Below, piece after piece: positions 5,162 to 46,281 of a stretch of 64,000 bases of DNA (positions within the stretch are counted from its first letter, which is position 1; every line of letters starts with the position of its first letter). The position numbers and the translations under genes are program-made. The notes below the pieces were generated by a model, which was not told the DNA's origin, made no database searches, and worked only from the letters and a program-made list of their open reading frames with translations. The DNA lies in contig NZ_VFOK01000001.1 of assembly GCF_006716095.1 (NCBI RefSeq), forward strand, positions 1,581,375-1,645,374, in the 5' to 3' direction. Origin of the DNA: Barrientosiimonas humi (GTDB taxonomy: Bacteria; Actinomycetota; Actinomycetes; Actinomycetales; Dermatophilaceae).

Positions 5162-7366
5162 TCAGGGGCACGCGAGGTCGAGCAGCGCCTCGGGCAGGCC
5201 GGGGTCGGTGACGTAGACCCGGCCCGTCGGGCTGGTCCAGGTGCACCGCCCAGCGACGGTCATGGTGACCCGCCACCCACCCTCGTGCTTGGCCCGGTGG
5301 TGGTGCCGGCACAGGCACTGCAGGTTGCGCTCCTCGGTCGGGCCGCGCGGCCACGGGTCGACGTGGTCGAGGTCGGTGTAGCGCCCGCGGCGGTCGCACC
5401 CCGGGAACCGGCAACGCTGGTCGCGACGGATCACCCGGCGGCGCAGGCGCGCACCCGGCCGGTAGCCGCCGGTTTCCTGATCTGGGCCGGGCTGTTCCGC
5501 CGCCTGCGCGACGTGGGCTCGGGTGACTCCACCGGTGGTCGGCGCCGGAGCGGCCCAGGCCATGCTCGCCACGTCGTGCGGCGGGTCGATCGGCAGCTGG
5601 ACCCACTCCGCCGTGGTCCGGGCGGCGCGGCCGGTGAGCAGCTCGAAGACGTCGGCTGTCGGCACCGGGCCGGCGCGCTCGTGGAGCAGGACCGGCACGT
5701 CCGCCAACAGCTGCCGCACCTGCCCCGGTGTCACCAGGGTCCGGCTGCCCGGCGGCTTCGGGGAATCGGTGACCGAGGGCGGCCCCTGCGACGGCGCAGC
5801 CTGAGTCGACGGCGACGGCGGCCCCGACGACTCCGGCGGCGGCTCTTGCGACGAGGACGGACCAGGCGGCTCTGGCGACGGGGACGGGGACGGGCCAGGC
5901 GGCTCTGGCGACGGGGACGGGGACGGGCCAGGCGGCTGGGCCGACGGGGACGGGCCAGGCGGTTGAGGCGGCTCGGGTGACGGCGGCTGCGGGACGATGA
6001 GCTCGAGGTGGGCGGTGAGGTCGACGTTGCCCATGGCGAGGTCGTACAGGGCCTCGGCGCGGTGCTCCCCCAGCAGCATCGCTGCGCGCGCCACGTCCTC
6101 GCTCGTCCTGTTGCCGTCGTTGGTCGCGCCGGCCGCGCCGGCCGCGCTCTCCGGCGGCTGCTCGCCGTGCGCGGTTGCGGAGCCGGTGCGGGCGGCCTGC
6201 TGCGCCTGGTGGGCGCGCTGGTCGACAGCGTCCATCAACGCCACGGCCTTGCCGGTGGGCATGACCGCGCTGAACGCCGACAGCCCCGGAGTCGTGTGCG
6301 AGTCGAGCCAGACCCCGGTCTGCTGAGCCTTGGTGCGCTTCGCCGATCGCCGGGCGGCCTCCGACTCGTGACGGCCGACGAGGGTCCGTGTCGAGCGCTG
6401 CGCCTGAGTGCGCTGGCGCTGATGGACCCGGCGCCTCAGCACCGCCTCCTCGACCAGCTCGCAGGTCTCGGGCCGCGCCTCCTGCACCTCGCGGGCGATC
6501 GCGGCCGCGGTCTCGATGTTGACCTCGCCGCGGCCGACGGCGGCGAGCACGCCGGGCACCCGCGTGGTCAGCCAGACGGAGTCGTCGACGAGGGAGTCGG
6601 CGGCGTAGGGCCCGAGGCGCAGCGCCGGCCCGAGCAGGTCGCCGGCGAACTCGGCACGGTGGCCGGGCTGGTGCTCGACCACGTCGAAGGGTCGAGGCTG
6701 CTCGCCCGCCAGACACTCCTGCGCCGAGAAGAACGCGCTGTCGGGGACCCGGTCGAACCTCGCCAGCCCCGCCGTGGCGTGCGCCCGCACCGCCGCCGCC
6801 TGGTTCATCGCCGCGTGCGCGAGCACCGCGGTCAGCTCGAACTGCGCCTGCCGCTCGGCGGCACGGTCGGCCTCGCGCCACGCAGCCTCCGACTGCAGCT
6901 CGCGCTCGACCTCGCCACGCGCGGCAGGCGACCGTGTCTCGGGGACAGGCAACGGCGTCCGGGGCAGGCCCTCACCACCCGCACCACCCTCACTGCCCGC
7001 ACCGCCCGCTCCGCTCGGACCGTTCATGCCGCCCGCACCGCCAGACGCCACAGCATCACCGGCACCCACCGACGCCGGCCCGAGATCCGCCGGCACCAGC
7101 CACTGCTCCTGCTCGCTCAGCGCGAACGGGTCGGTGCGCTGCATCCGGTCGATCAGGTCGGCGGTCAGCACCTGGATCGCGCCCATCAGCAGGACCACCG
7201 GGTCGTGCGTCTGCGGCTCCGCGGCACCGTGCGGACCCGAGCGCGCCACGGGACCGAACGTGCCCTCGACGGCCCCGACGAGGCCGTCCTCGTAGAGCAA
7301 CGACTCGAACAGCGCACGCGCCGCGGCGACCGGGTCGCCGGGAGTCGGTGCGGTGCTCGGGGTCAT
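5162..7366 (-). CDS. DUF222-HNH endonuclease-like protein (13E12 type), proline-rich
   Basis: A 734-residue member of the actinobacterial DUF222-HNH (13E12-repeat) family. The helical DUF222 domain covers most of the first ~440 residues. The C-terminal HNH module (~652-700) has paired Cys (CRFPGC), the DLDHVDPW core and CRHHHRAKH. Between them lies a Pro/Ser-rich segment (~455-540) encoded by 33-bp repeats, and a Gly-rich stretch lies near residue 120. HNH proteins cut DNA; the role of this family is not established. The ATG at 7366 sits 7 nt after TACGAT, a leaderless promoter overlapped by a LexA-type box (7375-7390). DNA-damage induction is therefore likely. Confidence 0.85.
5862..5962. 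repeat. 33-bp minisatellite inside the HNH gene
   Basis: Three head-to-tail copies start at 5862, 5895 and 5928, the last shortened by 6 bp, followed by a partial fourth. The unit is a multiple of three, so copy-number changes would only lengthen or shorten the proline-rich linker of the encoded protein. Confidence 0.85.
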
Positions 7367-15187: not shown

Positions 15188-15245
15188 CGGTGCGACCGCG
15201 AAGGCGGACGTCACCACTCACCGGGTCGCCGACGTACGGCCACCC

Positions 15246-15370
15246 ACGTGCGCCTCCCATCCGGACTTTCACCGTCGGTCCTGGAGTTCCACCAGGTCAA
15301 CCGACCGCCGAGGCGATCGGGTCGCGGACTGTCACCGCCGGCTCAGAGTTTCACTGACCCCGGAGCACGT
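15246..15370 (-). promoter_or_regulatory. FMN riboswitch (RFN element)
   Basis: On the minus strand this region carries the conserved RFN blocks in order: GGGGTCAGTGAAACTC, GCCGGCGGTGACAGTCCGCGA, GGTGGAACTCCAGGACCGAC and GGTGAAAGTCCGGATGGGAG. The outer P1 helix is formed by ACGTGC (15370-15365) and GCACGT (15251-15246). Binding of FMN should lower expression of the rib operon. A likely -10 (CATACT, 15383-15388) lies just upstream, placing the transcription start a few bases before P1. Confidence 0.95.
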
Positions 15371-15438
15371 TCTTGCCCCAGCAGTATGCACGACGCCGCG
15401 GGGCGCGCGACACGGCGGCCCGGCTGCTGGAACGTGGA

Positions 15439-15652
15439 TGCTGCAGCGTTGGTGCTGCAGCGTTGGCGCCTTGGTGCCGGGCGGGGGTACGCCCTACGCG
15501 CCAACCATCCGGCCTCGCAAGCTCGGCCTCCCGCCAGACCCATCCACGGCGCTACGGGCGCACCCCCACCCGGCCCGCACAGCCCGGCCACCCGCCAGAC
15601 CCATCCACGGCGCTACGGGCGTACCCCCACCCGGCTCGCACAGCCCGGCCCC
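15439..15652. repeat. Short tandem repeats in the 15371-15700 gap
   Basis: The gap between the riboswitch and rpe holds no convincing gene. It contains a 14-bp doublet (TGCTGCAGCGTTGG at 15439-15452 and 15453-15466) and two ~61-bp direct copies (15531-15591 and 15592-15652) that differ at a few positions. The latter contain the short mirror-like segment ACGGCGCTACGGGCG. Confidence 0.75.
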
Positions 15653-19570: not shown

Positions 19571-21076
19571 ATGGCGCCCGCAGCGGGACGGCCGACGCGG
19601 ATCACGACCGATCGGGGCGGGGTGACAGGCGGTCGGCTCGACCTGCGCGCACGCATGGCGTGGCTGGCCCGCACCGTCCGGTGCGCGTCCGGCGACCCGG
19701 GCAACCAGCGGCAGGTCGACTTCGCGCGCCGGCTCACCGAGCGCGGCGTCAACGCCAGCAACTCCCGGATCTCGATGTGGGAGAACGGCCACCAGGCGAT
19801 GTCGCTGGAGGTCATGGGCGGCTACGAGCGGGTGCTCGACCTGACCCCCGCGCTGCTGCAGGCCACCGCGACCGCCCTGTCCCGGGGCGTACGTCGGCGC
19901 GGGCGGCTGCCCATCGCCGAGCCGCGCGGCGAGATCTCCCAGCTCGAGGGGCAGCGCCGCCTCGACGCGGTCTACGACGCGGCGATGCGCGGCACCTGCG
20001 TCGGCTCCGACTGGTTCGCGCTGGCGGCCTACTGGAACCGGGTCCCGACCGCGATGACGCCGGTGGCCATCGTGCGCCAGCTGATGCTCGTGCTCGTCGA
20101 CGAGGTCGCCCGCGCCGTCGGGCCGGCGTACACCACGCGCTACCAGGCGCTCGGCATGGTCATCGACCACCCGGTCTACTCCCCCATCGCCGTCGAGACG
20201 ATCCACGACTACGCCGTCGAGACCGGTGTCGACTCGGTGATGGACGTGCTCGGCGCGTTGGGCGAGTGCCAACCCAACATCGCCGTCACCCGCGAGCTCA
20301 TCTCGCTGGCCCGCACCGGGAACGGCCGGGTGCGCGCCGGCGCCGTCTACGCGCTCGAGACGTCGATGCTGCTGCGGGTGCTGCCGCAGGAGGCGCTCCC
20401 GCACGTGCAGCGGCTGACCCAGATGCTGCGCGCCGGCTCGGTGCAGGACCTGCGGCTGGCCGAGCGGCTGGTGCGTCAGCTGATCGAGCTGGGCGTGGTC
20501 GAGCGGCCCTCGCGGGTGCCACGCCCGGCTCCCGACCGGCGCGCCACCTCGAAGGTCGTGGCGCAGTACGTCACCCGCGCCCGCGAGGCCACCGGACTCC
20601 CGCAGGACCCGGTGCTGGTCAACCTGCTGGAGGAGGCGCACGGCCACGACCACCACCAGTACCGCCACCACGTCGCGCTGCTGCTCATGGCCTCGCCCTA
20701 CCGCCCCGCGCTCGCCGACCACGCCCTCACCGTCGCGCTCTCCGGGCCGACCGGGCACGAGGCCTACTGCGCCGCCTGGCTGCTCACCTACCTCGCGCAC
20801 CCCGAGCAGGACGCCGCCCTGCTCGCCGCGATCGCGAACGGCCCCGAGTCGCTGCGCTCGACCCTGCTCATGGCACGCACCCACGCGAGCCCCCTCCCGC
20901 CCGAGGTCGACCTGGTCGCGCTGCAGCCCGACACCTCCTCGGAGAGCCCGCTGGTCTACGCCGCCGGCATGTCGCAGCACCCGCTGCTCGCCACCTGGGC
21001 CGGCCAGAACAAGAACCCCTCGCTGCGCGAGCGCGCCCAGTGGTGGCAACGGCACGGCGGCGCCGTGCGCGAGTGA
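19571..21076 (+). CDS. Long XRE-type HTH protein with helical-repeat C-terminus
   Basis: A 501-residue protein of unknown role. Residues ~25-92 form an XRE/Cro-type helix-turn-helix domain; the recognition helix ends in NSRISMWENGHQAMS. The remaining ~400 residues are almost entirely helical, with regularly spaced Leu/Ala patterns resembling HEAT or TPR repeats. There is no kinase, nuclease or membrane signature. The ATG at 19571 has a strong GGAGG Shine-Dalgarno, unlike many leaderless neighbours, and a possible -10 (TACTTT, 19522-19527). It stands alone on the plus strand, convergent with the HAD gene across repeat array A. It may be a ligand-sensing regulator or a peptide-responsive sensor; neither is shown. 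Confidence 0.75.
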   Translation: MAPAAGRPTRITTDRGGVTGGRLDLRARMAWLARTVRCASGDPGNQRQVDFARRLTERGVNASNSRISMWENGHQAMSLEVMGGYERVLDLTPALLQATATALSRGVRRRGRLPIAEPRGEISQLEGQRRLDAVYDAAMRGTCVGSDWFALAAYWNRVPTAMTPVAIVRQLMLVLVDEVARAVGPAYTTRYQALGMVIDHPVYSPIAVETIHDYAVETGVDSVMDVLGALGECQPNIAVTRELISLARTGNGRVRAGAVYALETSMLLRVLPQEALPHVQRLTQMLRAGSVQDLRLAERLVRQLIELGVVERPSRVPRPAPDRRATSKVVAQYVTRAREATGLPQDPVLVNLLEEAHGHDHHQYRHHVALLLMASPYRPALADHALTVALSGPTGHEAYCAAWLLTYLAHPEQDAALLAAIANGPESLRSTLLMARTHASPLPPEVDLVALQPDTSSESPLVYAAGMSQHPLLATWAGQNKNPSLRERAQWWQRHGGAVRE

Positions 21077-21085
21077 GCGGCGCAC

Positions 21086-21375
21086 GCGCAGGCGGACCTC
21101 CGCGAGAACGTACGAGCGCCGCACCAGCGCACCCACCGCACCCTCCGGCGGACCACCGCCGAACCGTGCGCCCCACCGCACCCTCCGGCGGACCACCGCG
21201 ACAACGTACGACCGCCGCACCAGCGCACCCACCGCACCCTCAGGCGGACCTCCGCCGAACCGTGCGCCCCACCGCACCCTCCGGCGGACCTCCGCGAGAA
21301 CGTACGAGCGCCGCACCAGCGCACCTTCCGGCGGACCTCCGCCCCACCGCACCCCTCGGCGGACCACCGCGGGGG
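21086..21375. repeat. Hairpin-repeat array A
   Basis: About three and a half tandem units of ~96 bp between the convergent HTH and HAD genes. Each unit has two halves: one with GGCGGACCWCCGCG, then ACGTACGA; the other with CGGCGGACCACCGCCG, then AACCGTGCGCCCC. The second half is a near-perfect hairpin (CGGCGG/CCGCCG, 4-nt loop; first copy 21146-21161). The same family recurs at 28502-28820 and 30212-30540. No open reading frame here has normal protein character. Confidence 0.85.
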
Positions 21376-21384
21376 CGTGCGCGG

Positions 21385-22173
21385 CTACTGCGGGAGGTCG
21401 AGGCCGCGGGCGCGCAGGTCCTCGCGCAGGTGGCCGGGCCCGGTGAACAGGATGGCGTCCAGGCCGGCCTCCTCGGCGGCCTGCACGTTGGCCGGGGAGT
21501 CGTCGACGAAGATCGCGTCGTCGAGGCTGCCGAGGTGGCGCATCCGCTCGCCGAGGATCTGGAAGATCTCGGCGTCGGGCTTGGCTACGCCCTCCTCGCC
21601 GGAGACGACGATGTCCTCGAACAGGTCGAGGAAGTCGAAGCGGTCGAGCGCCGCCGGGAACAGCTCGGCCGACCAGTTCGTCAGGGCGACGACCGGTACG
21701 CCCGAGGCGTGCACGTCGCGCAGCACCGCCACGGTGTCGTCGATGGCGCTGACCAGGGAGGCGTCGAAGTTGGCGCGGTAGCCCGCGATCTCCTCGGCGA
21801 GCTCGGGGTGGCGCTCGATGGCGGCCGCCTCGGCCTCGGCCCAGGGGCGGCCGGCGTCCTGCTCGTGGTTCCACCGGGCGAAGTCGAACTCCGGGTTCGC
21901 CAGGAACGCCGCAGCCCGCTCCTCCCCGACAGCCGCGGCGACGGCGGCCATCGGGTCCCAGCGGATCAGCACGTTGCCGAGGTCGAACACCACCGCGTCG
22001 ACCGCGCTCGGCGCCAGTCGCGGGTCCTGCAGCAGCTCGTCGCCCGTCGGGTCGTTCGAGGTGGGGTTGTACGTCGTCGGCTCGGGCGTCGAGGTGTCGT
22101 CCTGCGCAGCGTCGGTGCTCGTGCTGCGCAGGTGGTCGCTGTGCTGGCGGTCAGCGGGCATGGCCCCACCCAA
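21385..22173 (-). CDS. HAD-superfamily phosphatase (YihX-like)
   Basis: A 262-residue HAD hydrolase. Motif I is VVFDLGNVLIRWD, where the nucleophile Asp is followed by Gly-Asn as in YihX-type sugar-phosphate phosphatases. Motif II is VVALTNWS, motif III is the AKPDAEIF lysine, and motif IV is IFVDDSPAN. The cap is small and helical (subfamily IA). The first ~57 residues are Ser/Thr/Asp-rich and not part of the fold, so Met5 or a later start is possible. The substrate is unknown. It is convergent with the HTH gene and separated from priA by 166 bp. Confidence 0.85.
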   Translation of the reverse strand: MGGAMPADRQHSDHLRSTSTDAAQDDTSTPEPTTYNPTSNDPTGDELLQDPRLAPSAVDAVVFDLGNVLIRWDPMAAVAAAVGEERAAAFLANPEFDFARWNHEQDAGRPWAEAEAAAIERHPELAEEIAGYRANFDASLVSAIDDTVAVLRDVHASGVPVVALTNWSAELFPAALDRFDFLDLFEDIVVSGEEGVAKPDAEIFQILGERMRHLGSLDDAIFVDDSPANVQAAEEAGLDAILFTGPGHLREDLRARGLDLPQ

Positions 22174-28110: not shown

Positions 28111-28428
28111 TCAGTTCTGCTCGAACCGCTCGATGAGCGCCGCGGCCTGGTTGGCGCCGATGCCGCGCACGCGCCGGGACTCCGAGATGCCGATGTCGGC
28201 CATGATCTGGCGCGCCCGCACCCGACCCACGCCGGGCATCGACTCCAGCAGCGCCGACACCTTCATCTTGCCGATGACCTCGTCGGTCTTGCCGGCCTCG
28301 ATGACCTCGCGCAGCGAACCCTGGGCGTACTTCAGCCGGTTCTTGACCGCCGCGCGCTCCCGCCGCACCCGAGCCGCCTTGGCCAGCGCCTCCGCGCGTT
28401 GCTCGGGGGTGAGCGGAGGTAGGGCCAC
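28111..28428 (-). CDS. mihF: Actinobacterial integration host factor
   Basis: MihF is a small nucleoid-associated DNA-binding protein of actinobacteria, unrelated in fold to IHF of proteobacteria. The 105 residues carry the helix-rich N-terminus (LTPEQRAEALAKAARVRRERA) and the S13/H2TH-like DNA-binding region ESMPGVGRVRARQIMADIGI. GTG at 28428 is preferred over the in-frame ATG at 28458 because GAGGAG precedes it by 6 nt and homologues start with ALPPLTPEQR. It is the first gene of the mihF-gmk-rpoZ-coaBC-metK-priA run. Confidence 0.95.
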   Translation of the reverse strand: MALPPLTPEQRAEALAKAARVRRERAAVKNRLKYAQGSLREVIEAGKTDEVIGKMKVSALLESMPGVGRVRARQIMADIGISESRRVRGIGANQAAALIERFEQN

Positions 28429-28491
28429 GGGATCTCCTCGGTCGGGCACGGCTGCCACCCCGGCAGACGGGTGGGCGGGCGGTTCTGAGTG

Positions 28492-28521
28492 AACCTAGCG
28501 AGTCGCCGGGGCGGTCGGCAA
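28492..28521 (-). promoter_or_regulatory. Probable promoter of mihF-gmk-rpoZ
   Basis: Minus-strand TTGCCG (28521-28516), an 18-nt spacer and TAGGTT (28497-28492) form a plausible housekeeping-sigma promoter. It ends about 64 nt upstream of the mihF GTG and abuts repeat array B. Confidence 0.5.
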
Positions 28522-28820
28522 CGCGGGGAGCGCACGCTGCGGCGGAGGACCGCGAAGGCGTGGGAGCCCGGCGCCCGCACCCTCCGGCGGACCACCGCCG
28601 AACCGTGCGCCCTGGCGCACCATGCAGCGGAGGACCGCGAAGGCGTACGAGCCCCGCGCACGCACCCTCCGGCGGACCACCGCCGAACCGTGCGCCCTGC
28701 CGCACCATGCAGCGGAGGACCGCGAGACCGTACGCCTGCCGCACCCCCTTGCGGTCCACCGCCGACCCGTGCGCCCTGGCGCACCCTCTATCGGAGGACC
28801 GCGAAGGCGTACGGCCCGTC
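28502..28820. repeat. Hairpin-repeat array B
   Basis: About four alternating half-units. One is GCACCCTCCGGCGGACCACC followed by GCCGAACCGTGCGCCCT; it folds as CGGCGG/CCGCCG (28585-28600 and 28670-28685). The other is GCAGCGGAGGACCGCGAAGG followed by CGTACGAG, folding as GCGG/CCGC. The array fills the space between the stop of the DUF559-like gene and the mihF promoter. No credible protein is encoded. Confidence 0.85.
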
Positions 28821-29735
28821 TCAGCCGGCCCTGGTCGCCCGCCGCTCGAACAGCCAGTACGCCTCGCGCACCTGCGCCATCAGCTCCGCCTCGTGCAGTC
28901 GCAGGCCGAGCACCGGCAGCCGCAGCGTCGAGTCACCACCGATGAGCAGGGCGTTCTGCCGCAGTGCGTCGTCGACCGGCCCGAGACCCAGGTGGTGCTG
29001 CACCCCGTCGATCTCGACGCCGAGCCCGTTGTCCCAGTGCGCATCCCGCACGGCGCGGCCGCCCGGCAGCTCGCGCACGACCTGCAGGCTCGGTGGCGGG
29101 ATCCGATAGCGCTCGCACAGCCGCGCGAAGTCCAGCTCCCCCAGGGCCTGCACCCCACGGGCGACGTCTCCCACCACGGTCGCGATGAACGCCCGACGCC
29201 AGTGCGGCTTCATCTCGGCCACCAACGCCGGAAGCTCCTCCACCCGAACCAGCCGCTGCTGGGCGGTCATGACGAGCAGCAGTGCAGCCTGCCGGTCCGA
29301 CGCCGCCCACTCCGCGGCGCGGATCAGCGCGACGTCGGGTCGCACGCGGGGCAACCCCTCGAGCAGCTCCCCGGCGCGCCGCGACGCGATGCCCCGGATG
29401 TCGACCTGCGGCACCTCGGGTCGGTGGTAGTGACCGGGCAGCGAAACCGTGGGCCGGCGGCCGGCGTCGAACCCCGTCAGGCCCGCGTGCACCAACGCGG
29501 TGACCCCGTCGATCGCCGCGCCGGCGCCGCACTCGAACACCGCGGTCCACCGCTCCCCCAGCGCGCCGATGGCGCCGTTCGTGGTCGCGACGGTGTGCCG
29601 CCCTCGGGTGCTCCACCGGCCCGCCGTCACCTGGTTGCGCACCCGCCAACGGTCCGCCCCGAGACTGCGCAGCTGACGCCGGTGCAGCACGTCGCCCTGC
29701 TGCGCAGCCAGAGCGGCGATCGCCTCCATGTCCAT
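28821..29735 (-). CDS. AbiEi-like / DUF559-type protein
   Basis: A 304-residue protein of a family common in actinobacteria but uncharacterised. The N-terminal ~70 residues resemble the winged-helix of AbiEi antitoxins (GDVLHRRQLRSLGADRWRVRNQVTAGRW). The middle is helical. The C-terminal ~100 residues look like the DUF559/Vsr-like PD-(D/E)XK nuclease fold: the D-(12)-EIDGVQHH pattern is visible in DAHWDNGLGVEIDGVQHH. A canonical catalytic Lys is not obvious, so nuclease activity is uncertain. ATG at 29735 is preferred; an in-frame upstream codon at 29822 would cross the neighbour's promoter region. It sits with the MazG gene between two arrays of the same repeat. Confidence 0.7.
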   Translation of the reverse strand: MDMEAIAALAAQQGDVLHRRQLRSLGADRWRVRNQVTAGRWSTRGRHTVATTNGAIGALGERWTAVFECGAGAAIDGVTALVHAGLTGFDAGRRPTVSLPGHYHRPEVPQVDIRGIASRRAGELLEGLPRVRPDVALIRAAEWAASDRQAALLLVMTAQQRLVRVEELPALVAEMKPHWRRAFIATVVGDVARGVQALGELDFARLCERYRIPPPSLQVVRELPGGRAVRDAHWDNGLGVEIDGVQHHLGLGPVDDALRQNALLIGGDSTLRLPVLGLRLHEAELMAQVREAYWLFERRATRAG

Positions 29736-29865
29736 GCCGGCACGCTGCCCGCGCAGCTCGAACCCGGGAAGCCCAGGCCGCAGCCTGTGGACACCGCAGC
29801 TCGTCACGACAGGGTTGTGCACGACCAGCCCGAACCGGCACGTACGTCCGCGCGACCCCGGTCGC

Positions 29866-29871
29866 TACCGT
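29866..29871 (+). promoter_or_regulatory. -10 box of leaderless MazG-gene promoter
   Basis: TACCGT, 6 nt before the GTG at 29878. No Shine-Dalgarno is present. Confidence 0.5.
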
Positions 29872-29877
29872 CGCCGC

Positions 29878-30207
29878 GTGCAGATGGACGAGTACCAGCA
29901 GGCTGCCTTGCGCACCGCCGCGCCGAAGGACAAGAAGAACGAGCTGCTCCACCTCGTACTGGGGCTGGTCGGCGAGAGCGGAGAGATCGCCGAGAAGTTC
30001 AAGAAGTGGGTCCGTGACCTCGACAGCGACGAGGCCGCCATCGACCGCGACGACATCAAGCAGGAGCTCGGCGACGTGCTGTGGTACACCGCCGTGCTCG
30101 CCGACTACCTCGGCCTGCGCCTCGAGGACGTGGCGCAGGCCAACGTCGACAAGCTCGCCAGTAGGCAGGCGCGCGGGGTGCTCGGCGGCAGCGGGGACCA
30201 GCGCTAG
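29878..30207 (+). CDS. MazG-like nucleotide pyrophosphohydrolase
   Basis: A 109-residue single-domain MazG-fold protein. The metal-binding motif is complete: ESGEIAEKFKKWV (ExxE helix, ~31-43) followed about 20 residues later by ELGDVLWYTAVLADYL (ExxD helix). Such enzymes cleave NTPs to NMP and PPi, either cleaning the pool or responding to stress or phage; the substrate is not predictable here. GTG at 29878 is chosen for its leaderless promoter spacing; the next Met is two codons in. It is divergent from the DUF559-like gene and runs into repeat array C. Confidence 0.88.
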   Translation: MQMDEYQQAALRTAAPKDKKNELLHLVLGLVGESGEIAEKFKKWVRDLDSDEAAIDRDDIKQELGDVLWYTAVLADYLGLRLEDVAQANVDKLASRQARGVLGGSGDQR

Positions 30208-30211
30208 GCCG

Positions 30212-30540
30212 CACCCGGCGCACCCTCCAGCGGAGGACCGCGAAGGCGTACCAGCCCCGCGCCGCACCCTCTGGCGGACCACCGCCGACCCGTGCGCCCT
30301 GCCGCACCCTGTAGCGGAGGACCGCGAAGGCGTACGAGCCCCGCGCAGCAGCCCCTCACCCCCTGGCGGACCACCGCCGACCCGTGCGCCCTGCCGCACC
30401 CTGTAGCGGAGGACCGCGAGGGCGTACGCCCGCCGCACCCCCTCACCCCCCGGCGGACCACCGCCGACCCGTGCGCCCTGCCGCACCCTGTAGCGGAGGA
30501 CCGCGAGACCGTACGCCCGCCGCACCCCCGCACCCCCGGC
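30212..30540. repeat. Hairpin-repeat array C
   Basis: Four copies of GCGGAGGACCGCGA (each followed by a GTACG-type segment) alternate with three copies of GGCGGACCACCGCCGACCCG, with a period of about 80-92 bp. The array lies between the convergent MazG-like gene and pyrF. Several half-units are identical over more than 40 bp to one another, so the array has been recently homogenised. Confidence 0.85.
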
Positions 30541-30543
30541 GCC

Positions 30544-31416
30544 TCAGCCCCCCGCGAGCTCGGCGGCCTGCTGGCGCACCGCCGCGCGCAGGCCCGCGGG
30601 TGCCGGGCCGGCGGCGAGGATGCCCCGCGACGACGACGGCAGCACCAGCGGGAGGGCCGGGCCGAAGCCGCGCGCGATGTCGCCCGCGTCAGCGCCCTGC
30701 GCGCCCAGCCCCGGAGCCAGCAGCGGCGCTCGCGAGTCGGCCAGCGCCTGGGCGAGCCCCAGGTCGGCGATGTCCTTGCCGACGGTCGCGCCGACGACCA
30801 TGCCGGTGCTCCCGAACCGGCCGGAGCCGCCGCCCTCGGCGTTGCGCTCGGCCACGGCCGACACGATCTCCTCGGCCACGGTCACGCCGCCCTCCCCTGC
30901 GGCATCCGCCGCGACCCGCGCGTGCTGCACCTGCGCGCCCTCGGGGTTCGACGTCATCGCGAGCACGAACACGCCTCGCCCAGTTGCGTCCGCGAGCTCG
31001 AAAGCCGGTGCGAGAGAACCGAATCCGAGGAACGGGCTGACGGTGATGGCGTCGGCGGCGAGCGGCGACCCGTCGGACAGGTACGCCTCGGCGTAGGCCG
31101 CCATCGTCGACCCCACGTCGCCGCGCTTCACGTCCAGCAGGCTCAGCACCCCGACCTCGCGCAGCATCGCCAGCACGTGCTCGAGCACCGCGACGCCGGC
31201 CGAGCCGTGCCGCTCGAAGAACGCCGACTGCGGCTTCGCGATCGCGACCTGCCCGGCCAGCGCCTCGACCACCGTGTCGCCGAACCGCCGCAACCCCTCG
31301 ACGTCGTCGTCCAGCCCCCACCGGTGCAGCAGCTGCGGGTGCGGGTCGATGCCGACGCACAGCGGACCGTACGCCGTCACGGCCTCCTCGAGTCGGTCGC
31401 CGAACGTGGTGCTCAT
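30544..31416 (-). CDS. pyrF: Orotidine 5'-phosphate decarboxylase (type 2)
   Basis: PyrF makes UMP from OMP, the last step of the pathway. The 290-residue length and the LLDVKRGDVGSTMAAYAEAY active-site helix (DxKxxD charge network, ~94-113) mark the type-2 family usual in actinobacteria. VGIDPHPQLL near the N-terminus and PLVLPSSSRGI near the C-terminus bind the ring and phosphate. It is the last gene of the pyr operon, 62 nt after pyrD. Confidence 0.97.
   Translation of the reverse strand: MSTTFGDRLEEAVTAYGPLCVGIDPHPQLLHRWGLDDDVEGLRRFGDTVVEALAGQVAIAKPQSAFFERHGSAGVAVLEHVLAMLREVGVLSLLDVKRGDVGSTMAAYAEAYLSDGSPLAADAITVSPFLGFGSLAPAFELADATGRGVFVLAMTSNPEGAQVQHARVAADAAGEGGVTVAEEIVSAVAERNAEGGGSGRFGSTGMVVGATVGKDIADLGLAQALADSRAPLLAPGLGAQGADAGDIARGFGPALPLVLPSSSRGILAAGPAPAGLRAAVRQQAAELAGG

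Positions 31417-44381: not shown

Positions 44382-46281
<1,900 letters not shown>

Follow-up and report, generated by a model that had tools for sequence, protein, structure and literature searches.

Arrays B and C, the two repeat arrays on either side of a nuclease-like gene and a MazG-like gene, are likely members of a lineage-specific, REP-like repeat family that is distributed over the whole genome; they would be two of about 41 such arrays. The frame that they form around the gene pair is probably a by-product of the repeat gathering at gene ends, and not the border of a defence cassette. The window, by which we mean the whole 64,000-nt stretch analysed, corresponds to C1:1581375-1645374 of a 3.65 Mb genome in two contigs. 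Coordinates given below are window positions unless they are preceded by C1.

Two arrays flank an accessory gene pair

The first-pass annotation described two arrays of one repeat on either side of a divergent nuclease-like/MazG-like pair and placed the pair between pyrF and mihF. Both arrays are indeed present there, each with seven 34-nt units, and NCBIfam models identified pyrF and mihF as the genes between which the pair lies. The features of this locus, together with a third array of the same repeat, are as follows.

21081..21381, + strand: array A, seven units of the same repeat as in B and C, lying between the genes at 19655-21076 (+) and 21385-22161 (-), whose 3′ ends converge
28111..28458, - strand: mihF, actinobacterial integration host factor (NCBIfam NF041260, 140 bits)
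28491..28524, - strand: candidate mihF promoter, consisting of GCGTTGC, a spacer and TCGCTAGGTTC, intact directly beside array B
28531..28813, + strand: array B, seven units, with 7 bp between its end and the stop codon of the nuclease-like gene
28821..29822, - strand: nuclease-like gene, AbiEi-type winged-helix plus DUF559-type, 333 codons, with an uncertain start (29735-29822)
29884..30207, + strand: gene for a MazG-type NTP pyrophosphohydrolase, 107 aa (Pfam MazG, PF03819, 45.3 bits)
30219..30515, + strand: array C, seven units, lying between the mazG-like gene and pyrF, whose 3′ ends converge
30544..31416, - strand: pyrF, orotidine-5′-phosphate decarboxylase (TIGR02127, 262 bits)

The conserved protein start of mihF is probably the GTG at 28425, which we chose by eye. 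The element at 28491-28524 on the minus strand is likely the mihF promoter. In 24 of 35 relatives, the 190 nt that precede mihF contain a -10-like motif resembling that of the candidate, as compared with 1.4% of random stretches taken from the same loci. Array B had been annotated as starting at 28502, a position that falls within this likely promoter; the units proper begin only at 28531. A search for consensus terminators or promoters between 28000 and 31000 returned none. Elsewhere in the window, an FMN riboswitch (15245-15371, minus strand, 95 bits) was the only RNA family found.

For comparison we used 35 relatives, 31 from the family and 4 from the order, which represent 35 of the 53 others with a mihF match. 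At first pass, pyrF and mihF were described as usually adjacent in actinobacteria. In 32 of the 35, pyrF precedes mihF on one and the same strand; in the other three it was not upstream within about 5 kb. In the 32 relatives the gap between the two genes measures 69-3887 bp and exceeds 500 bp in nine. A scored ORF lies in six of these nine gaps, and a VOC-type ORF, recognized by eye, in a seventh, that of the genome designated G019 (L072 4423-5000). Neither gene of the pair was found in any of the 35 mihF neighbourhoods, and none of the relatives examined carries arrays or the pair between pyrF and mihF. Both genes are accessory at this locus.

The 34-nt repeat unit

The unit comprises 34 nt of the form CGYAC(S)-N5-GCGG-WSSW-CCGC-N5-(S)GTRCG, in which the loop is mostly W-SS-W (TGGT/ACCA, TCCT/AGGA and others). 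Successive units are most commonly 40 bp apart, exactly this distance being seen in 74 cases, and arrays B and C each show two unit types in alternation. Other tandem repeats of the window differ in consensus from this hairpin repeat: one at 46092-46277 repeats 2.1 times with a period of 87 bp and a 100% match, and those at 15505-15650 and 5838-5962, with periods of 61 bp and 33/60 bp, have a different consensus.

The label "hairpin" applies to part of the unit. Its inner (GCGG/CCGC) and outer (CGYAC/GTRCG) arms are complementary and able to pair, but the middle arms are not: at pairs 6/29 to 10/25, Watson-Crick combinations were rarer than in shuffled columns, and no pair of unit columns showed covariation above its shuffles. 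Because these middle pairs are less complementary than shuffled columns and no pair covaries, the unit seems to be held by its sequence rather than by pairing alone. The low self-complementarity and the absence of covariation speak against a simple selection for hairpin formation in RNA. When the arrays were folded as RNA, the minus strand of array B, the only strand of that array folded, did better than its shuffles (z -4.84), and array C did so only slightly, with z -2.65 for one strand and -1.81 for the other.

A repeat family nearly confined to one lineage

We surveyed the genome in 59 merged stretches (1.05 Mb, window included), laid out partly as a grid and partly around matches, using a 34-position score that was trained on 107 close matches from the same sequence and applied with a threshold of 14. 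The survey yielded 178 units above the threshold, as against none when the same sequence was read backwards; the repeats are far beyond chance. These 178 units form 35 arrays, 32 of which contain at least two units. Seven arrays fell within 31 roughly evenly spaced 20-kb samples (620 kb), a density that corresponds to about 41 arrays per genome.

Among the genomes examined, the repeat is nearly confined to this lineage. The unit pattern, with at most one mismatch allowed, matched this genome 168 times, in 89 cases forward and in 79 reverse, and gave 0 matches in a control reading. The 296 other genomes of the order had four matches each at most, and the matches listed include no second genome of the genus. 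A DNA search with array C in 186 family genomes, considering the best three candidates for each, gave short matches in 31 others, the best with an E-value of 1.9e-6. Many of the short family matches pile up on positions ~128-173 of the query (window 30339-30384), at about 78-85% identity. Scanning the genome_contigs collection, which may omit near relatives of the window, gave two single pattern matches, both in Streptomyces, which we have taken as chance. Array C had no match in the plasmid and phage collections.

Arrays gather at the 3′ ends of genes

A gene caller based on codon usage predicted 939 genes, with 88% of the sequence coding; those of the region were recovered, some of them with other starts. 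No array has its midpoint inside a called gene (0/35); in five cases, an array reaches into the called end of a neighbour, by at most about 26 bp. Arrays are present in 16 of 133 convergent gaps, 16 of 612 tandem gaps and 3 of 135 divergent gaps, and these overall rates are inflated by the selection of some stretches for having arrays. Convergent gaps are enriched in arrays relative to the rest (p = 1e-5); the depletion in divergent gaps is not significant (p = 0.34). Gaps of 100 bp or more that contain no array numbered 45 (convergent), 151 (tandem) and 97 (divergent). Altogether 29 of the 35 arrays lie nearer to a 3′ end than to a 5′ end, the median distances being 19 and 218 bp, and for 24 the distance to a 3′ end is no more than 50 bp.

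The neighbours of the arrays are diverse. Pfam was run on 20 of the 70 flanking proteins and matched 16, and the proteins beside arrays include EF-Tu, PNPase, sigma-70, a class II ribonucleotide reductase, catalase, a UvrD-type helicase, a DinB-type polymerase and an SRP54-type GTPase. Thirty-three of the 35 arrays adjoin genes other than the nuclease-like/MazG-like pair, housekeeping genes among them.

The arrays perhaps contribute to transcript ends, where they would act by hairpin-cluster termination or by end protection. None of the 35 arrays has a T5 tract within 40 nt, and it has been argued in a survey that hairpin clusters terminate transcription without a T-tract (PMC8355165). The placement of the arrays would be shaped by selection against those that insert into promoters and genes, so that arrays would persist where they are least harmful, behind stop codons.

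Origin of the frame around the gene pair

At first pass, the locus was read as a small accessory cassette that had entered between core operons at repeat arrays. The accessory nature of the pair agrees with our comparison, in which the pair was absent from the mihF neighbourhoods of all 35 relatives, but a role of the arrays as its borders is not supported, since nearly all of them (33/35) lie beside other genes. Because of their genome-wide occurrence at unrelated genes, we rejected cassette borders as the main reading. In the account that we prefer, the repeat would collect behind stop codons, at gene ends, and the nuclease-like and MazG-like genes would be accessory genes that arrived between pyrF and mihF in this lineage. 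Being divergent, the two genes have both 3′ ends pointing outward, and arrays sit at those 3′ ends; the pair would look bracketed because its genes diverge and arrays favour 3′ ends.

We consider it unlikely that the pair moved in together with arrays B and C, or by recombination between them, as a composite, direct-repeat-flanked cassette. The absence of the pair from the relatives is consistent with such an event, as is the kinship of the two arrays, which are colinear direct repeats that run in one orientation and share 84.8% identity across 302 bp. Their mean unit similarity of 0.924 is the highest among the seven array pairs closer than 25 kb; distant pairs have a mean of 0.788 and a 95th percentile of 0.881. 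When array pairs are ranked by BLAST score, however, B and C come second, behind two arrays that lie 408 kb apart (L221 at C1:519964 and L225 at C1:927661) and align over 369 bp at 81%. This alignment suggests copying of whole arrays. Compared with themselves after a shift of one doublet, B and C gave 84.9 and 88.8%, a similarity close to that between the two arrays. Whole-array relatedness at a distance therefore exists without the gene pair. Against the cassette stand also the 33 arrays that lack such a gene pair, and the presence of two nuclease copies but one mazG in the genome; the nuclease paralogue has no array in the surrounding 12 kb examined. Moreover, chance alone would give about 0.8 array pairs per genome with a separation as small as that of B and C, on an estimate that assumes uniform placement. 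We do not favour B and C as the halves of one split array either, as they align end to end and in register. B or C may have been copied when the gene pair arrived, in which case the array would have a historical link to the insertion.

The two genes as a possible defence module

AbiEi/DUF559- and MazG-type domains occur in defence contexts, and the pair had accordingly been seen as hinting at a stress or phage-defence role. The MazG-like identity was borne out by the Pfam match given above, and in PDB sequences the protein matched MazG (E 1e-4) and dCTP pyrophosphatase (E 3e-4). The AbiEi/DUF559-like label suits the family of its neighbour better than the window protein itself. The latter scores 14.8 bits with AbiEi_4, below the cut-off of 25, and does not match DUF559, whereas AbiEi_4 was found in 8 and DUF559 in 6 of 16 aligned members of the family (E up to 0.1). 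In this alignment, whose homologues are 44-56% identical, D260, E270, H276 and D285 are invariant; these residues may be part of a DUF559-type active site. Homologues of the nuclease-like protein occur in 88 of 119 family genomes, its own included, and a paralogue with 56% identity is encoded elsewhere in this genome; a search of the genome_contigs collection gave no relative. Of 118 other family genomes, 6 have a close MazG orthologue (66-75%).

It is highly improbable that the two proteins form a module in which they jointly counter phage or nucleotide stress. The patchy distribution of the MazG gene would suit such a module, but in none of the neighbourhoods fetched from other loci do the two genes occur together. 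The first-pass annotation had proposed looking for the same pair at other sites; outside the window locus, we found a MazG match in 0 of 29 neighbourhoods of nuclease homologues (±1.5 kb, best homologue per genome) and a nuclease match in 0 of 22 neighbourhoods with a MazG match (best loci per search), so that among these only the window locus has both. A conserved nuclease-MazG pair is not supported by these neighbourhoods. Furthermore, PADLOC reported AbiEi alone, with a non-significant E-value of 0.07, the nuclease homologues are common in the family, and no AbiEii-type toxin partner was seen here. The suggestion of a defence role thus found no backing.

Array orientation and spread

The direction of an array was defined by one arm type, GAGGGCGTACG (the c arm). 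A sharp switch of orientation near 1.65 Mb was discarded as a candidate; it assumed an origin at the contig start, and with dnaA, which lies at C1:3194885, it weakened to a difference between chromosome halves of 11 c+/5 c- versus 3 c+/11 c-, with 3 ties (Fisher p = 0.014), in a test that was chosen post hoc, was confined to contig C1 and let the terminus lie anywhere within 1.2-1.5 Mb. The strand of the nearest gene end had no effect as a predictor of orientation (p = 0.72), and GC skew was uninformative for the position of the terminus. We regard replication-linked orientation as a lead only.

As a polar motif of the chromosome, or as an element whose copying passes through single-stranded DNA at the replication fork, the repeat would take an orientation that follows replication. 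The difference between the halves, together with the failure of gene-end strand to predict orientation, speaks for this, but the terminus position was assumed, with no help from GC skew, and the test was picked after the data had been inspected. In addition, arrays A, B and C, which may not be independent, contradict the rule at the dnaA-based midpoint. We therefore judge this explanation very unlikely.

The Y1 (RAYT) transposase domain PF01797 had no match in this genome (99.97% complete), whereas 5 of 14 controls matched, and we rejected a RAYT-driven REP on the absence of this domain. The HUH Y2 transposase domain PF04986 also had no match in the genome, but neither did it in any of the 14 controls. 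One could picture a mobile or convertible element, namely a lineage-restricted REP-like family with no Y1 transposase or REP tag, whose whole arrays are copied over hundreds of kb, come to lie mostly behind stops and are oriented by replication; this we find doubtful. A lineage-specific REP-like repeat that gathers at gene ends is the reading that we carry forward.

Discussion

The tempting reading of the locus as a defence cassette gives way to one that can be tested, namely an orphan family of REP-like repeats behind core genes of one actinobacterium. Should the arrays terminate transcripts or protect the ends of mRNA, this genome would provide a natural experiment in the acquisition of 3′ ends in high-GC bacteria. 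A literature search of limited coverage gave no such repeat family in actinobacteria.

The gene pair differs from the AbiE toxin-antitoxin system, which pairs AbiEi with the nucleotidyltransferase AbiEii; here, the neighbours of the nuclease-like gene are the mazG-like gene, pyrF and mihF. The window protein resembles actinobacterial proteins that combine AbiEi_4 and DUF559, in that the conserved residues are common to it and its 44-56% identical homologues.

The arrays share with hairpin-cluster intrinsic terminators the presence of several hairpins within tens of bases 3′ of stop codons, as these terminators are described in the survey (PMC8355165). They differ in that they consist of one repeated sequence family that is nearly lineage-confined.

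With REP/BIME elements there are several points of likeness and some of difference. RAYT-associated REPs come with a Y1 transposase, which this genome lacks, and the GTAG and CGTC super-families carry tags that are not enriched in the units here: among the 178 units, GTAG occurred in 0, GGAG in 8 and CGTC in 5, compared with 0, 11 and 6 for the reversed-tag control. The host is a high-GC actinobacterium, and the main text of PMC3733652 mentions neither actinobacteria nor Streptomyces or Mycobacterium. On the other hand, CGTC REPs are described as likewise having no dedicated transposase, and some REP families as species-specific. REPs of other phyla are extragenic and situated near 3′ ends, between convergent and unidirectional genes (PMC3733652), and the arrays here are likewise extragenic, at 3′ ends and in convergent and tandem gaps, although their depletion in divergent gaps falls short of significance. 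A REP is an imperfect palindrome of 20-40 nt (PMC3733652, PMC2817692), as compared with 34 nt and complementary inner and outer arms in the present unit. REPs exist in more than 100 dispersed copies, and the present family numbers 178 units in 1.05 of 3.65 Mb. REPs also form doublets and larger clusters, with regular spacing and alternating orientation as a further trait; the present units are likewise clustered, most often 40 bp apart, and two unit types alternate in B and C. Thus, although REP tags are not enriched and no Y1 transposase was found, the arrays are REP-like in size, copy number and placement.
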